Below, in pieces: positions 20,328 to 25,604 of a DNA stretch of 40,123 nucleotides; the first letter of the stretch is position 1, and each line of letters opens with the position of its first letter. The notes beneath the pieces are model-generated. The model was not told the origin of the DNA and searched no databases. It saw nothing but the letters and a program-made list of their open reading frames with translations. Location of the stretch: the IMG/VR virus record IMGVR_UViG_3300043427_003560, positions 1-40,123 of that record; one strand, written 5' to 3'. The position numbers were made by a program, and so were the translations under genes. Source of the DNA: a virus.

Positions 20328-20552
20328 GTGACCTCCAATCCCCTGCTACGTCGGGATCCAATGCTCAAGCTCGCCGTCAGTCTCGGTTTCGAGATCAGGC
20401 CCGGGCGCAAGCATTGGCACGCCACCCACCCAAACGGCGGCCACACAACCATTCCGTTTGGCCGCAAGCGCAACTCACGCGCTGAACGCAACATCACCGC
20501 ATCCATCAGACGAGCTCTACTCCAGGGCTCGTCCGGCTTTCCCACCAGTTAA
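20328..20552 (+). CDS. HicA-like small protein
   Basis: 74 residues from GTG 20328, or 63 from ATG 20361 (MLKLAVSLGFEIRPGRKHWH). The core fits the HicA/YcfA dsRBD-like fold: a helix with RRDPMLKLAVSLGF, a strand with the catalytic-type His in GRKHWHATHPNGGHTTIPFG, and a C-terminal helix (NITASIRRALLQ). HicA toxins are ribosome-associated mRNA interferases. No HicB-like partner is seen next to it; the neighbours are a hypothetical gene and the Ubl gene. It may be an orphan or a regulator. Confidence 0.5.
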   Translation: MTSNPLLRRDPMLKLAVSLGFEIRPGRKHWHATHPNGGHTTIPFGRKRNSRAERNITASIRRALLQGSSGFPTS

Positions 20553-20640
20553 CCCATGACCCAAATACTTCTCCCGGTGCGCGCACCGCCCGGGAACTCC
20601 TGCGCTCACCTCCTTTCCATCTCTTCTTTCATACTTATCC

Positions 20641-20931
20641 ATGGGCTTCTTCAACTTCGGCACCAACAACACCAACACCGCTACCGCTGCCACCACCGAG
20701 CGCAAACCGGTGATCCTCCAGCTCAACGAGGAGCAGATCACCATCTCTCCGGCCGAGGCCGAGGGCAAGAGCGTCGCTGAACTCTTCAGCCTCTACGCCG
20801 ACGATCTCGGCGACACCGATCGCATCAGTCGCTTCGTGGCTGCTGGGCAAATCGTCGGTGGCGACACCGTCATCGAGCTCGGAACCGTGTACCGAGGCGC
20901 CATCACCTCCGAGACAAAAGGTCTCGGCTGA
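20641..20931 (+). CDS. Ubiquitin-like (beta-grasp) protein candidate
   Basis: 96 residues. A flexible Asn/Thr-rich N-terminus (NFGTNNTNTATAATTE) precedes a ~75-residue core with beta-grasp order: strands KPVILQLNEEQITISP, helix KSVAELFSLYADDLG, then RISRFVAAGQIVGGDTVIEL and VYRGAITSETKGLG. The C-terminus ends in Gly with a flexible tail, as expected for a ThiS/MoaD/ubiquitin-like modifier activated by an E1. It has no residues beyond the final Gly, so no maturation cut would be needed. It is first in a run with JAB, E2-like and E1-like genes. The fold is inferred; the identity is strongly supported by context and resembles PRTRC protein C. Confidence 0.6.
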   Translation: MGFFNFGTNNTNTATAATTERKPVILQLNEEQITISPAEAEGKSVAELFSLYADDLGDTDRISRFVAAGQIVGGDTVIELGTVYRGAITSETKGLG

Positions 20932-20943
20932 CCTTCTCTCCCT

Positions 20944-20967
20944 GGGCTCAGCAGCGCTGGGCCCTTT
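20944..20967 (+). terminator. Hairpin with T tract between Ubl and JAB genes
   Basis: GGGCTCAGC (20944-20952) pairs with GCTGGGCCC (20956-20964, one wobble) around AGC; TTTCTCTTTCAC follows and runs to the JAB start at 20984. It may attenuate transcription so that the modifier is made in excess over the enzymes. It may also act as a leader element. Confidence 0.65.
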
Positions 20968-20983
20968 CTCTTTCACATCACCC

Positions 20984-22054
20984 ATGACCGAATTCATCCG
21001 TACACCACGTAACGGGTGCTTCCAGGTCCGGACCAACGCATGGGGCTCCTTTCTAAGCCCCATCCCGGATCCTGACGCCCACGCCGATCTGGAAGACGGC
21101 GCCCTCGAGCGCTTCGAGCTCAATTCCAATATCAGCAAGATCCCTGCCGACCTCTGGTCACGCTGGATCAAGCTGTGTTTTCATTTCGCCCACCTCAAGC
21201 AGGGCGATCTCGAGGTGTCATGCAGACTGCTGCGCAAGGAAGACGACCGCTCCACGTGGCGCATCCTTGTGCCTCGCCAGGAGGTCAGCGGTGCCAGCGT
21301 TCGCATCGACACCTTCGATTCCTCCATCGACATCGAAACCGGCGAACTGATCGAGACCTACCCGCCACAGGGCTGGGTTCCTGCTGGCAGCTCCCACTCC
21401 CATAACTCCATGCCACTGGCCAAGTTCAGCAGCATCGACGACGCGAGCGAACTGGGCTGCCCTGGGCTGCACATCGTCATTTCCCACGTCTCGATCCTCA
21501 AGAACACCTACGTCCCTACCGCATCCGTCACCGCCAACCATCGGCGCTTCTACCTCGACGATGCCGCCGATGTCATTGACCTCACCCCCGCTGACACCAC
21601 ATTCCATCCCTCCGTCCTGACCATCATCGAGCCCGAACGGACTCGCTGGTCCTACGGCACCCATTACGGAGATGCCTGGCTGCCTGGTCATCTCAGCCGG
21701 GAAGAGGCCGCTGTCTACGGCTCTACCACCAGCAGCCTGAAACCAGGCTCCTCGACGCGTTCTCACTCGCTGGATTGCTTCGATCACCTCGACGACTTTG
21801 GCGTCTCCCCCGATGAGCTCCTCAATGAGTCTTTGCTTTACTTCTCTGAAGCATTAGAGGAGATCCGCGCCATCTGCTACAAGCACGGCATCGACTTCAT
21901 GCGCGCCCATTCGAAAGTCATGGACGCTGTCAATTTCACATTTGACTCAGAAGACCCCATCTGGTACTCCGATGACCTCACTGATCTCGCCGCAGACACC
22001 ACCTCCGGTCCTGATTCACCCGCTCCCGTCGCACTACCTGCTGGCCAGTGGTAG
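20984..22054 (+). CDS. JAB/JAMM metalloprotease (deubiquitinase-like)
   Basis: 356 residues. The JAMM zinc motif is intact: HSH at 138-140, then S149 and D152 (HxH-x8-SxxD, seen as HSHNSMPLAKFSSIDD), with candidate catalytic Glu at E77 (DLEVSCRLLRKED) and the strand WRILVPRQEVSGASV between them. This is the JAB/MPN+ isopeptidase core found in PRTRC protein A and in bacterial Ubl-removing enzymes. Residues about 190-356 form an extra region without a recognised motif. The ATG at 20984 follows a terminator-like hairpin and the CTCTTTCAC leader. It would remove or process the Ubl encoded just upstream. The C-terminal coding region overlaps the E2-like gene by 83 bases. Confidence 0.8.
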   Translation: MTEFIRTPRNGCFQVRTNAWGSFLSPIPDPDAHADLEDGALERFELNSNISKIPADLWSRWIKLCFHFAHLKQGDLEVSCRLLRKEDDRSTWRILVPRQEVSGASVRIDTFDSSIDIETGELIETYPPQGWVPAGSSHSHNSMPLAKFSSIDDASELGCPGLHIVISHVSILKNTYVPTASVTANHRRFYLDDAADVIDLTPADTTFHPSVLTIIEPERTRWSYGTHYGDAWLPGHLSREEAAVYGSTTSSLKPGSSTRSHSLDCFDHLDDFGVSPDELLNESLLYFSEALEEIRAICYKHGIDFMRAHSKVMDAVNFTFDSEDPIWYSDDLTDLAADTTSGPDSPAPVALPAGQW

Positions 22055-23045
22055 CCGGCACGTCGAGGTGATTGGCGCCGTGGCTCGCCACTGCATCCGC
22101 CTCACCGCCTGGATGCCCGACCGCTGGGGCCTTTGCGAGTTCGCCGATCTCGATTCCGAGGATGCCGAGGAGCGCTGGATCGAGGAAAACTGCAATGGCT
22201 GTAAATACAACTTCGACACATACGACGAGGAGTCGTCCATCAATCTCGACGGCATCCACGACGATGACAGCAACCAAGCTGTCTTGGTGCGCTACGAATC
22301 CTGCTGCCCATACGGGCGCGGAGAAGGATTTGACTGCGTTCCCTTCCCCTGCCCCGCTGGCCGCTACGGACCGGACTCGAGCTACTACTCCGAATATGAC
22401 GGCCCTATGCCGCCCATGGCCTACAGCGTCGACCTCAATCCATTCACTGGTCGCGCGCATTACTCATACGCCTGGATGCAGGCTTGCTTTCCCTCTAATC
22501 TCCTCAATCCCAGACTGACTCGCATCTATCAGTCGATCAATACATTCGATGACCACAGGGTCTGCTGGGGCGAAGAGAACAGCACACCGGAATCCCTGCC
22601 CGCTGTCGTCGCCACCTACTGCGATGCCAGGGCCAACGCCGACCTCTTGCAACCTGAGAGCTTCAGCCAGTACCGCACCATGGTCCGCAAGGATCCGCCG
22701 ATCACGGCCCCAGCTGGCATCGCCATCGGCCCTGGCTACGACGCCGCATTGCTGGTTTCCGCTCAGCACCATCGCACCGCCTATCTACTTCTGCGCGCTT
22801 CTGGCGTGCCGGCCAATGACGGACACATCGTGGCCGGACTCAGGCACCACGACGCCAACAGTGTCAAGGGTTTCGCTACCGATCCCGACACTGATGGCAA
22901 CTATTGGTTCTTCACCCTCGACCCCACCGGCTACGTAGACGGCTCCCAAGCACTCCTCCTCGGCCAACTCTCTACCTCCACCACCACGGCATGTACATCG
23001 ACAGCACCCTCGTCATCGGCGCTGGCGGCTCCGGCGGCCAGTTGA
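21972..23045 (+). CDS. E2-like conjugation protein candidate (Cys-rich)
   Basis: 357 residues from ATG 21972 (an upstream ATG at 21942 would add ten). It contains a Cys-rich region (CNGC at 74-77, CCPYGRGEGFDCVPFPC at 111-127) that may bind zinc. An aromatic and Pro-rich part (YSVDLNPFTGRAHYSYAWMQ) is followed by HRVCWGEE, with C198 as candidate catalytic Cys placed as in Prok-E2 proteins (short motif with C-W/L-G). The last ~20 residues are encoded in the overlap with the E1 gene and are Ser/Thr-rich. Its role as E2 is inferred from position between JAB and E1 and from this motif; the fold is not proven. Confidence 0.5.
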   Translation: MTSLISPQTPPPVLIHPLPSHYLLASGSRHVEVIGAVARHCIRLTAWMPDRWGLCEFADLDSEDAEERWIEENCNGCKYNFDTYDEESSINLDGIHDDDSNQAVLVRYESCCPYGRGEGFDCVPFPCPAGRYGPDSSYYSEYDGPMPPMAYSVDLNPFTGRAHYSYAWMQACFPSNLLNPRLTRIYQSINTFDDHRVCWGEENSTPESLPAVVATYCDARANADLLQPESFSQYRTMVRKDPPITAPAGIAIGPGYDAALLVSAQHHRTAYLLLRASGVPANDGHIVAGLRHHDANSVKGFATDPDTDGNYWFFTLDPTGYVDGSQALLLGQLSTSTTTACTSTAPSSSALAAPAAS

Positions 23046-23701
23046 TTCCCTCGCTCGCCCGCCTACTTGCCTACCACCCCAACGCATCCTCCTCTGTCCT
23101 CATTGCCGATGGGGACAGCTTCGAGGCGCACAATCAAGAACGGCAACTCTGCGGCGCCGGGCAGATCGGCCGCAACAAGGCCGACGTCCTGGCTGAATAC
23201 TGCCGTGACATCGGTCTGACCCAGGTCACCAGTCTTGCTGACTTCCTGGACCGCCCCGCGATTCGCCGCTTAACGCAGCACGCCACCTGCCCCCTCGTCG
23301 TCACCACTGTTGACAACGACGCCACCCGTGCTGCCGTCATTGAGGTCCTTGAGAAGCGGGCTGACAGCAACTGGCTGCACGTCACCACCGGCAATGCCGA
23401 CAACTCCGACGGCCAATCCCGCATCTCTACCTCCACTCACTGGCATGGCGTCATCGCTGGCCAACCGGTTGGCATCTCACCCGCTCTGCTCTTTCCGAAT
23501 ATCGCTACCCCGTCTGACGCCATTCCCGCGCACGGCTCCTGCGCTCTCGCTGCTCCATCGGCTCCGCAGCTCATCAGCGCCAACGCACTCAGCGCTGTCA
23601 TGGCTCTGCTCGTGATCCAGAACCTGCTGGACGGACGCCTGGATTCCGTCACCAACTCGGCCTTCGCTAACGGCCGTTCCTTCAAGCTCACCCTTTCTTG
23701 A
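22991..23701 (+). CDS. ThiF/E1-type adenylyltransferase
   Basis: 236 residues, a minimal single-domain E1/ThiF protein. It has a Rossmann nucleotide loop GAGGSGG (residues 10-16), the acidic strand IADGDSFEAHNQERQ (D40, D42, N48, R51, Q52), the ATP-site Lys in GRNKADVLA (K63), and VDND (D108). C184 in HGSCALAAPSAPQLISAN sits where ThiF/E1 proteins carry the reactive Cys. It would adenylate the C-terminal Gly of the Ubl and pass it to a Cys. It starts at ATG 22991, overlapping the E2-like gene by 55 bases. Length and motifs match PRTRC-type ThiF proteins. Confidence 0.85.
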   Translation: MYIDSTLVIGAGGSGGQLIPSLARLLAYHPNASSSVLIADGDSFEAHNQERQLCGAGQIGRNKADVLAEYCRDIGLTQVTSLADFLDRPAIRRLTQHATCPLVVTTVDNDATRAAVIEVLEKRADSNWLHVTTGNADNSDGQSRISTSTHWHGVIAGQPVGISPALLFPNIATPSDAIPAHGSCALAAPSAPQLISANALSAVMALLVIQNLLDGRLDSVTNSAFANGRSFKLTLS

Positions 23702-23706
23702 TTCCC

Positions 23707-24282
23707 ATGACCGCTACCGTCACCGTCACCGACAACACCGTCAAAGTCGACGACCTTATCTTCAAGCTCGACTCCCTCGTCACCGCCTACGATGAGGTGC
23801 TGTCCATGGCGAAGCAGCAGCTCGAGCAGTTCTCCATCAGCGATGACGACTGGGCGCGTATCTATGAGCGCCTGTCGCGTCGCATCGATTACTTCGACCT
23901 TGGCGACTCCCTCAAGAGGAGCCTTCTTACTGGCCTCCAATGGATGGAGAACAATCCCGACAGTGCCAACGACTCGTCCTCTGACTCCGACGTTGTTTTC
24001 ACCAGGGCTCTGATCGGCCGCCTCAGGTACGAGCTTATGGCGGCCGTTAAGGATCACATCGTCTCAGAGGCCATCCGCTGCGAGATTGCCCGTATTCGCA
24101 ACGATCTCCGCAATGAACTTCGGGACTTTGCTCGCAACGCAGCCGGGGAAGCCGTCGGCGCCCTTGTTCGCGATCAAACGCGCACTGCCGAGCGCCAACG
24201 TGAACTCATCCGTGAGCTGCTCGAAAGCACCTTCGGCAATGAACTCAAGACGATGATTCGTGAAGCGTCAAGCCAATCCTGA
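23707..24282 (+). CDS. Helical hypothetical protein downstream of E1
   Basis: 191 residues. A short beta-rich start (MTATVTVTDNTVKVDDLIFK) is followed by long helices (AYDEVLSMAKQQLEQFSISD, CEIARIRNDLRNELRDFARN, ERQRELIRELLESTFGNELK), probably a coiled coil. It starts five bases after the E1 stop, so it belongs to the same operon and may be a partner or target of the Ubl system. No motif found. It overlaps the next gene by 23 bases. Confidence 0.55.
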   Translation: MTATVTVTDNTVKVDDLIFKLDSLVTAYDEVLSMAKQQLEQFSISDDDWARIYERLSRRIDYFDLGDSLKRSLLTGLQWMENNPDSANDSSSDSDVVFTRALIGRLRYELMAAVKDHIVSEAIRCEIARIRNDLRNELRDFARNAAGEAVGALVRDQTRTAERQRELIRELLESTFGNELKTMIREASSQS

Positions 24283-24493
24283 TTCGCCCGAAGGCGATCT
24301 CTACCTCACCCGCATCCGACGTGCCGCCGGCTGGTATCACACCTCAGCCGGCTGGCTATCGCATGACAGTACCCCTGAGCAGCAATGGCTCGATCAGGGG
24401 TTCCCCCTGCCGGAGGATCCGATCTACGGCCAGTGGTATCGCCGTCACTACAACGTTCTCGTCGGACCCTTCGTTGGCGTCCAGACCGTGTAA
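24260..24493 (+). CDS. Small hypothetical protein, GTG start
   Basis: 77 residues starting at GTG 24260 (reads MKRQANPDSPEGDLYLTRIR). Aromatic-rich and compact (AAGWYHTSAGWLSHDSTPEQ, YGQWYRRHYNVLVGPF). The GTG overlaps the preceding gene by 23 bases. No family recognised. Confidence 0.5.
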   Translation: MKRQANPDSPEGDLYLTRIRRAAGWYHTSAGWLSHDSTPEQQWLDQGFPLPEDPIYGQWYRRHYNVLVGPFVGVQTV

Positions 24494-24515
24494 TCAGCAT
24501 CTACCTATTCCTGCC

Positions 24516-24821
24516 ATGCCCAAGCAACCCGACAGCTCCACATCGCTCCCTGCCACAGTCATTCCCGACGACCTGCAGGGCCGTATTGCCGCCTTCCTGT
24601 TTGAAGGCGCCCATGGCGATGAGCTGCAGTTGACCAAGTCTGGTCGGCTGAAGATCGTCGTCGAAGCCCAGCTCGTGGCCGATGGGCACAGCTTTCCTGT
24701 GCGGCAGCTCGCCAGCACCAATTGGCCACGTGGTGAATCCCTGGCTCAGAGGCTCCACGCTTACGCGCAGACCTGGTCCTCCAGGATCGGCGATGAACTC
24801 GCTATCGCTAATCAGCCATGA
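24516..24821 (+). CDS. Small hypothetical protein
   Basis: 101 residues starting MPKQPDSSTSLPATVIPDDL. A polar N-terminus precedes a beta-rich core (HGDELQLTKSGRLKIVVEAQ) and a helix (ESLAQRLHAYAQTWSSRIGD). It starts 22 bases after the previous gene. The stop overlaps the next ATG (ATGA). No family recognised. Confidence 0.5.
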   Translation: MPKQPDSSTSLPATVIPDDLQGRIAAFLFEGAHGDELQLTKSGRLKIVVEAQLVADGHSFPVRQLASTNWPRGESLAQRLHAYAQTWSSRIGDELAIANQP

Positions 24822-25093
24822 GATGCTCGCATTGCGGCCAAGCGATCAGCAAGGAGGGATCAGGCAGTATCTTTCCTGAAATCTACAACTTTCTTGTCAA
24901 GCATGAGCGAATGCCGATCGTGCTTCCCACCATTGAGGAGATGGGCAAGTATCCGGGTGGATATGCCTTTGTTAAAAGGATTCATTCACTTGGTGGTCTA
25001 AGAAGGTTCAGGCCTGAGTACACGGAATACGCGGCCCTCAGGTACACGGCTGATATCAAAGCCGCATCTAGCACCCCCGCAGAGTTGCCTTGA
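24818..25093 (+). CDS. Small protein with N-terminal CxxC, lower GC
   Basis: 91 residues. MRCSHCGQ carries a CxxC; the rest is helical with Gly turns (IYNFLVKHERMPIVLPTIEE, GGYAFVKRIHSLGGLRRFRP), loosely like the repeats that accompany HNH/homing endonucleases. The stretch is more AT-rich than its neighbours, which suggests a recent transfer. It overlaps the Dps-like gene on the other strand by 26 bases. Function uncertain. Confidence 0.45.
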   Translation: MRCSHCGQAISKEGSGSIFPEIYNFLVKHERMPIVLPTIEEMGKYPGGYAFVKRIHSLGGLRRFRPEYTEYAALRYTADIKAASSTPAELP

Positions 25094-25571
25094 GGAACCA
25101 CGCTGCTTTGTTGGCTGCAGCAACTAGCTCAGCCATGTAATTCTGCACGTCGATGGCTCGCGCCTCGCCGGCCATCGCTTCAATGGCAGTGGCCTTCTCG
25201 ACCAACCCATCGAGATTCATCAGGTACGTCATCAGCATCTGCATGCCGTCATAGCTCGCGCAGTTCTCAAAGTCACGCACTGACTCTTTGAGACCGCAGC
25301 TGCACATCGGCATGAAGTTGTCCAGCGCCCGCACGTATTCCGCCACCTCGTCGAACTCGGCGAGGTGCGCCTCGTACTGGCTCTTCAGGAATTCGTGGAC
25401 CGAGAAGAAATTATCGCCCTCGTAATTCAGATGCACCAGATGCGCCTGCGTCTCCAGTTCCTTCAGGAAGCCCGCCAGTTCAATCAGCTCGCGGACCAAC
25501 CCACCCGGCTGCTGTGACGGCGCAGGCTCACCTGTCATCAATCCCTGGCCAGCCGGCATGACCGCGTACAT
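25068..25571 (-). CDS. dps: Dps/ferritin-like protein
   Basis: 167 residues from ATG 25571 (a GTG at 25586 and ATGs at 25559 and 25538 are alternatives). The conserved block HLVHLNYEGDNFFSVHEFLK...AEFDEVAEYVRAL carries the Dps ferroxidase pattern: two His (in VHLNYEG and SVHEF) and Asp/Glu in EFDEVAEYV. A CSC motif follows, and then two more helices, giving the four-helix fold. Dps proteins form 12-mers that oxidise and store iron and may bind DNA, protecting against peroxide. It is the only minus-strand gene in this stretch and lacks an evident operon, like a moron. The C-terminal helical part is less conserved. Confidence 0.8.
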   Translation of the reverse strand: MYAVMPAGQGLMTGEPAPSQQPGGLVRELIELAGFLKELETQAHLVHLNYEGDNFFSVHEFLKSQYEAHLAEFDEVAEYVRALDNFMPMCSCGLKESVRDFENCASYDGMQMLMTYLMNLDGLVEKATAIEAMAGEARAIDVQNYMAELVAAANKAAWFLKATLRGC

Positions 25572-25604
25572 GCAGTTCTTTCGCACTGCATTTCATCCTA
25601 CCCA

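Follow-up and report, generated by a model that had tools for sequence, protein, structure and literature searches.

Bacteria use ubiquitin-like (Ubl) protein conjugation as an antiviral weapon. The function of PRTRC-type E1-E2-JAB sets, predicted in 2006, is to our knowledge still unsettled. PRTRC cassettes (operon type 6d of Iyer et al. 2006, PMC1779556; NCBIfam TIGR03734-TIGR03738) combine a Ubl, a JAB, an E2-like and an E1-like protein with an alpha-helical protein. BilABCD likewise holds Ubl, E2, JAB and E1 together in one operon; there, BilD pairs an inactive with an active adenylation domain (IAD and AAD), BilB carries a CEHH motif and BilA has two Ubl domains (PMC11354881). Here we analyse four consecutive plus-strand genes at positions 20,641-23,701 of a 40,123-base virus record (IMG/VR IMGVR_UViG_3300043427_003560; this whole stretch is called the window), which an earlier sequence-only reading had proposed to be a Ubl conjugation cassette:

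20,641-20,931, plus strand: Ubl, 96 amino acids; beta-grasp in the structural model; conserved C-terminal SETK-G94, then an apparently removable LG tail
20,984-22,054, plus strand: JAB/JAMM metallopeptidase, 356 amino acids; PRTRC-A-like; E77, H138, H140, S149 and D152
21,972-23,045, plus strand: E2-like protein, 357 amino acids; E2 core with C198 and N190; conserved C-terminal domain
22,991-23,701, plus strand: E1-like ThiF adenylyltransferase, 236 amino acids; ATP-site motifs and candidate catalytic C184

These four genes, probably with a helical gene behind them, very probably make up a cyanophage system for reversible protein conjugation that is complete in itself. This confidence covers the biochemical reading and not its purpose: what the sequence shows is the set of components, their conserved catalytic residues and the KG terminus, and thioester transfer, linkage and target are what we infer. 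The JAB would trim the Ubl precursor after K93-G94, removing the LG tail present in the window, and/or later take the tag off. E1 would adenylate Gly94 using ATP and load the Ubl onto C184, from which it would pass to C198 of the E2 for attachment to a target protein. The general elements of Ubl conjugation, namely an E1, an E2 with a catalytic Cys, a Ubl with a terminal Gly and a processing peptidase, are all recognised at this locus at the level of sequence.

Of the described systems, PRTRC is the one whose named families the window proteins approach: E1 points to PRTRC_ThiF, the JAB relatives to PRTRC_A and the E2 profile to PRTRC_B/Prok-E2_D. All scores against PRTRC families nevertheless fall under the curated cut-offs, the window Ubl is nearer ThiS/Ub-Mut7C than Prok_Ub, an insert with four Cys and an added C-terminal domain make the E2 larger, the order is Ubl-JAB-E2-E1-helical where a Hydrogenophaga plasmid has C-F-B-A-ThiF, and the carriers are phages. 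The sequence-only reading had seen no PRTRC ParB gene, and indeed TIGR03734 had no match in the window, itself a fragment, or in 23 related virus records, while a control plasmid scored 619.6 bits. With no ParB, a different Ubl and gene order, and scores below the cut-offs, the cassette is not canonical PRTRC. Nor is it BilABCD, because the architecture of E1, E2 and Ubl differs (PMC11354881): the 236-amino-acid window E1 has a single adenylation domain in place of the IAD and AAD of BilD, the E2 family has CWG and conserved N222/D224 with no conserved His there, unlike the CEHH of BilB, and the 96-amino-acid Ubl is one domain. CBASS Cap2/Cap3 and 6A-MBL E1-E2-JAB systems share the E1 adenylation domain with the window (weak matches), but here E1 and E2 are separate proteins and no CD-NTase or metallo-beta-lactamase gene was recognised in the cassette.

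The four open reading frames (ORFs) lie adjacent or overlapping as first proposed, with overlaps of 83 nucleotides between JAB and E2 and 55 between E2 and E1, and their third-position G+C (0.73-0.80 across Ubl, JAB, E2 and E1) resembles that of the adjoining phage genes. Single-protein pattern scans of IMG/VR using E1, JAB or E2 alone returned no matches, the patterns being over-specific; alignment-based scans succeeded where these had not. A JAB-motif scan recovered 21 contigs (L087-L107; L numbers label contigs) whose JAB is 40-63% identical to that of the window, together with 3 weaker ones. The search for the same gene order in other phages, which the sequence-only reading had suggested, turned up Ubl-JAB-E2-E1 in about 16 viral contigs (about 12 distinct, several being near-duplicates), a recurrence that makes the cassette more than a chance arrangement.

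At the level of sequence, the identities of E1 and JAB are certain. E1 exceeds the family cut-off of Pfam ThiF (1.5e-9); its best NCBIfam family is PRTRC_ThiF (8.6e-14), at 51.4 bits below the curated cut-off of 144.75. Against strict profiles built without window sequences, which underlie the JAB, E2 and E1 profile scores cited here, E1 matched the PRTRC/phage E1 profile at 1.9e-36 and JAB matched at 1.5e-13. The E1 residues GxGGxG, D40, D42, N48, R51, Q52, K63, D108 and C184 are invariant across 18 alignment rows, upholding the initial call of a ThiF/E1 with all ATP-site motifs. A Pfam search with the window JAB alone gave no match; its relatives match NCBIfam PRTRC_A at 2-3e-5. As the complete HxH-x8-SxxD motif had implied, the full JAMM set (E77, H138, H140, S149 and D152) is present, and it is kept in all relatives not cut there.

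The window E2 alone found no single-sequence family match and scored weakly against an independent profile (0.13). A profile of its family reaches 6.4e-6 against the PRTRC/phage Prok-E2_D set over the N...CWG...N-D segment, compared with 0.4-0.8 for unrelated profiles, and a divergent relative in L105 matches PRTRC_B at 0.0033. Twelve E2 relatives keep C198, W199, N190, N222 and D224 as well as C74, C77, C112 and C127, the last four probably forming a metal-binding insert; N190 sits eight residues ahead of C198, the same spacing as in PRTRC-B proteins. The predicted E2 identity rests on this profile similarity to PRTRC-B/Prok-E2_D and on the conserved residues.

The window Ubl by itself matched no database family. 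Its AlphaFold2 model, made from a 13-sequence alignment, shows beta-grasp order with a mean predicted local distance difference test (pLDDT) score of 77 and 84-89 in the core, and its fold matches in the PDB are SUMO, ATG8/GABARAP, TGS, MoaD, NEDD8 and designed ubiquitins. The model thus bears out the small beta-grasp protein that the sequence-only reading had proposed, but the glycine at its very end, G96, is not the conserved one. S90, E91, K93 and G94 are invariant in the alignment, and the C-terminal KG carries tails of 0-2 residues: 7 of 13 sequences stop exactly at KG and the others add LG, RH, VY, F or S, the window reading SETKG-LG. Because KG is invariant and the residues beyond it are variable or missing in relatives, G94 and not G96 is predicted to be the functional glycine; the short, variable tails suggest a processed precursor. 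The window Ubl was also tried as a TKG-type Ubl, for which fit and profile comparison gave no support.

The carrier is an S-EIV1-like phage (a Synechococcus phage lineage): homologous TerL, a homologous neighbouring structural protein and conserved synteny agree with the phage location first put forward, and the virus probably infects cyanobacteria. TerL shares 54.5% identity with its counterpart in Synechococcus phage S-EIV1 and about 80% with the terminases of 23 IMG/VR contigs that have the gene order in common. E1 was absent by tblastn from S-EIV1 and these 23 contigs, two of them 82 and 85 kb, and family profiles found none of the four cassette genes in the examined sequence of the same set. 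In the window, the cassette occupies a variable slot:

20,553-25,067, unstranded: variable accessory slot with the cassette, flanked by a HicA-like ORF and a Dps-like ferritin gene

The slot of syntenic relatives measures 775, 2303, 2370 or 3193 bp and contains other small ORFs and no cassette. At its edge lies a small ORF (window 20,328-20,552), HicA-like by eye and conserved in the syntenic relatives; window 25,068-25,586 (minus strand) encodes a homologue of the S-EIV1 DNA-binding ferritin-like (Dps) protein. Cassette-bearing S-EIV1-like contigs L087, L090 and L099 have it at other positions within the same early region. The cassette is accessory, belongs to the early region, and is shared among cyanophages, which gain it and lose it.

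Directly behind E1 in the window stands a further gene that probably belongs to the cassette:

23,704-24,282, plus strand: probable fifth component, helical protein; N-terminal motif NTVKVDDLIFKLDSLVTAY; in-frame ATG at 23,707

Judged from its composition, the product would be helical. Homologues lie directly 3' of E1 in the S-EIV1-like contigs L087, L089, L090 and L100, and a 110-amino-acid gene 3' of E1 in large-phage contigs has the same N-terminal motif (profile-profile comparison 7.5e-6 over 30 residues; controls 0.4-0.7). Operon type 6d also includes an alpha-helical protein, to which kinship of this product could not be established (Iyer et al. 2006, PMC1779556).

Cassettes extend beyond S-EIV1-like phages. 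Cassette-bearing contigs of 72, 161, 224, 258 and 284 kb carry a different terminase type (phrog_2). Synechococcus phage Bellamy, which is a T4-like cyanophage, has a terminase with 72% identity to the one on the 258-kb contig, and this one in turn shares 57-92% identity with the terminases of the contigs of 72, 161 and 284 kb. In an E1 tree made by a quick method, with some fragments assigned to the T4-like group from E1 alone, S-EIV1-like and T4-like cyanophage sequences form one clade (support 99). Since this joint clade splits mostly by phage type, the pattern would fit an old transfer between phage types followed by descent and loss. Among 84,980 bacterial and archaeal genomes, a scan picked up remote JABs only, in Bacillota and 30-38% identical, and a plasmid search found no JAB kin. 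As these searches of bacterial and archaeal genomes and plasmids were limited, the branch is virus-specific only at their sensitivity.

Carriage by a phage, which the sequence-only reading had expected to be an unusual find, proved not to be unique, because related E2-JAB-E1 sets occur in other large phages, isolates included. Another IMG/VR scan identified 34 virus-classed contigs with such sets, many of 100-188 kb and a few probably integrated elements rather than phages. Taken together, the two scans yielded about 56 contigs whose JAB is PRTRC-A-like, most of these JABs adjoining E1 and E2. Sets of this kind, complete or in part, are also found in the isolates Salmonella phage Arash, Bacillus phage vB_BauM_KLEB27-3 and Vibrio phage D69. 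Like the window, these sets are phage-borne with E1, E2 and JAB of the same families; unlike it, they run E2-JAB-E1, their Ubls, frequently tandem, terminate in RTGTKG or a similar sequence, and the window E1 falls in a separate clade. We found no open-access paper on phage-borne PRTRC or Ubl cassettes, with subscription papers and preprints outside the coverage; given this incomplete coverage, we do not regard the phage context as proven to be new.

In Arash, the E1, JAB and E2 homologues (gp246-gp248) are among 116 proteins found by phage-particle mass spectrometry, which shows expression and not incorporation into particles (PMC10585845). A 66-amino-acid Ubl ending RRTGTKG lies at L007:107-307 of Arash, in a frame that differs from annotated gp251 (L007:102-320); the Ubl of this set seems to be missing from the published annotation. 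Tandem Ubls joined via GVKG or GTKG occur in KLEB27-3 (L003:3-449) and at L079:4202-4627, L067:4317-4739, L058:4333-4722 and L065:4267-4707. Lying near E2-JAB-E1, they amount to polyubiquitin-like proteins encoded by phages, and those joined by GTKG would need a peptidase.

Several observations weigh against reading the window cassette as a conjugation system. The AlphaFold2 model of the E2 has a pLDDT of 66 and is poor around the active site (loop below 50), and a Foldseek search with it matched no PDB or viral structure and no solved E2, for which reason the UBC-type fold is only likely; the Cys-rich candidate E2 of the sequence-only reading thus keeps its profile match, its invariant C198-W and N190 and its four Cys, but gains no structural match. 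For the Ubl, Foldseek E-values are weak (best 6.8e-3), yet nearly all of the top 50 are beta-grasp proteins. The Ubl also shows no detectable sequence kinship to Prok_Ub/PRTRC-C Ubls (profile comparison 0.07), and neither it nor its 12 relatives matched the Prok_Ub family. The cassette-free phage relatives are, moreover, mostly short contigs. Two Ubl relatives instead match Pfam ThiS weakly (best 0.0062) and one matches Ub-Mut7C (0.0038), and the single-domain 236-amino-acid E1 resembles ThiF/MoeB. These would suit a sulphur-carrier route, in which a ThiS/MoaD-like Ubl is thiocarboxylated by E1 for a biosynthetic or tRNA reaction, maturing the Ubl is the sole task of the JAB and the third protein is non-conjugating. 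We consider this very unlikely: the third protein has invariant Cys198 and Asn190 and a Prok-E2_D profile match, E1 is nearer PRTRC_ThiF than ThiF/MoeB, and the recurrent cassette neighbours include no recognised sulphur-transfer gene. Still less credible is a PRTRC-like maintenance function for a plasmid-like replicon. In its favour, no named family lies closer to E1, JAB and E2 than PRTRC ThiF, A and B do; but the Ubl is of another kind, the genes stand in another order, and we set the idea aside when ParB was not found in the window or the 23 related records, the control plasmid being positive.

The early region, accessory slot and patchy presence, along with weak matches of PADLOC E1-E2 profiles to E1, could also reflect counter-defence, the cassette blocking host Ubl immunity (Bil, CBASS Cap2/Cap3) through, for example, a competing Ubl or a JAB stripping host tags. 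For blocking, however, the Ubl or JAB alone would suffice, and the fact that every relative keeps the active sites of both E1 and E2 complete argues for active conjugation and not mere blocking, which leaves counter-defence unlikely. Modification of the phage's own structural proteins during assembly, to which the presence of Arash gp246-gp248 in the particle set lends some weight, is doubtful, since that 116-protein set may contain infected-cell carry-over (PMC10585845), the window cassette sits in the early region and not near the structural genes, and the cassette is missing from close relatives whose virion genes are the same.

If the cassette is indeed a conjugation system, its place in an accessory slot of the early region, its patchy occurrence and the fact that unrelated cyanophages share it make a host or rival-phage protein a more likely target than any component essential to the phage's own virion. 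As a leading but tentative guess, it would serve to fight co-infecting phages or to take over functions of the host. We hold with the same reserve that this is a virus-specific Ubl conjugation system, exchanged between S-EIV1-like and T4-like lineages, that tags host or rival-phage proteins during infection; if true, it would be a viral weapon assembled from the parts that bacterial Ubl immunity also uses. Complete Ubl sets with intact active-site residues are carried by viruses, whereas bacteria use Ubl conjugation against viruses. Confined to viruses within our searches and common to unrelated cyanophage lineages, the branch points to selection for the cassette. Related sets turn up in further cyanobacterial viruses that are not kin to this one, so protein tagging looks like a recurring phage tool. 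The function of PRTRC-type E1-E2-JAB sets also becomes testable, in growable phages (Arash and KLEB27-3).

Some cassette contigs depart from the common layout. The JAB gene is in two pieces with an intervening ORF at L102:5845-7092 and L106:5731-8477 (a 301-amino-acid ORF in L106), possibly through an inserted element or a frameshift. L103 (370 kb) has two Ubl-like genes and the order E2-JAB-E1, and L105 (216 kb) has two E2-like genes; their sets are possible intermediates between both phage cassette types. In the large-phage contigs L091, L095, L101 and L102, a GIY-YIG homing endonuclease-like family (F9) recurs beside the cassette and may aid its mobility.

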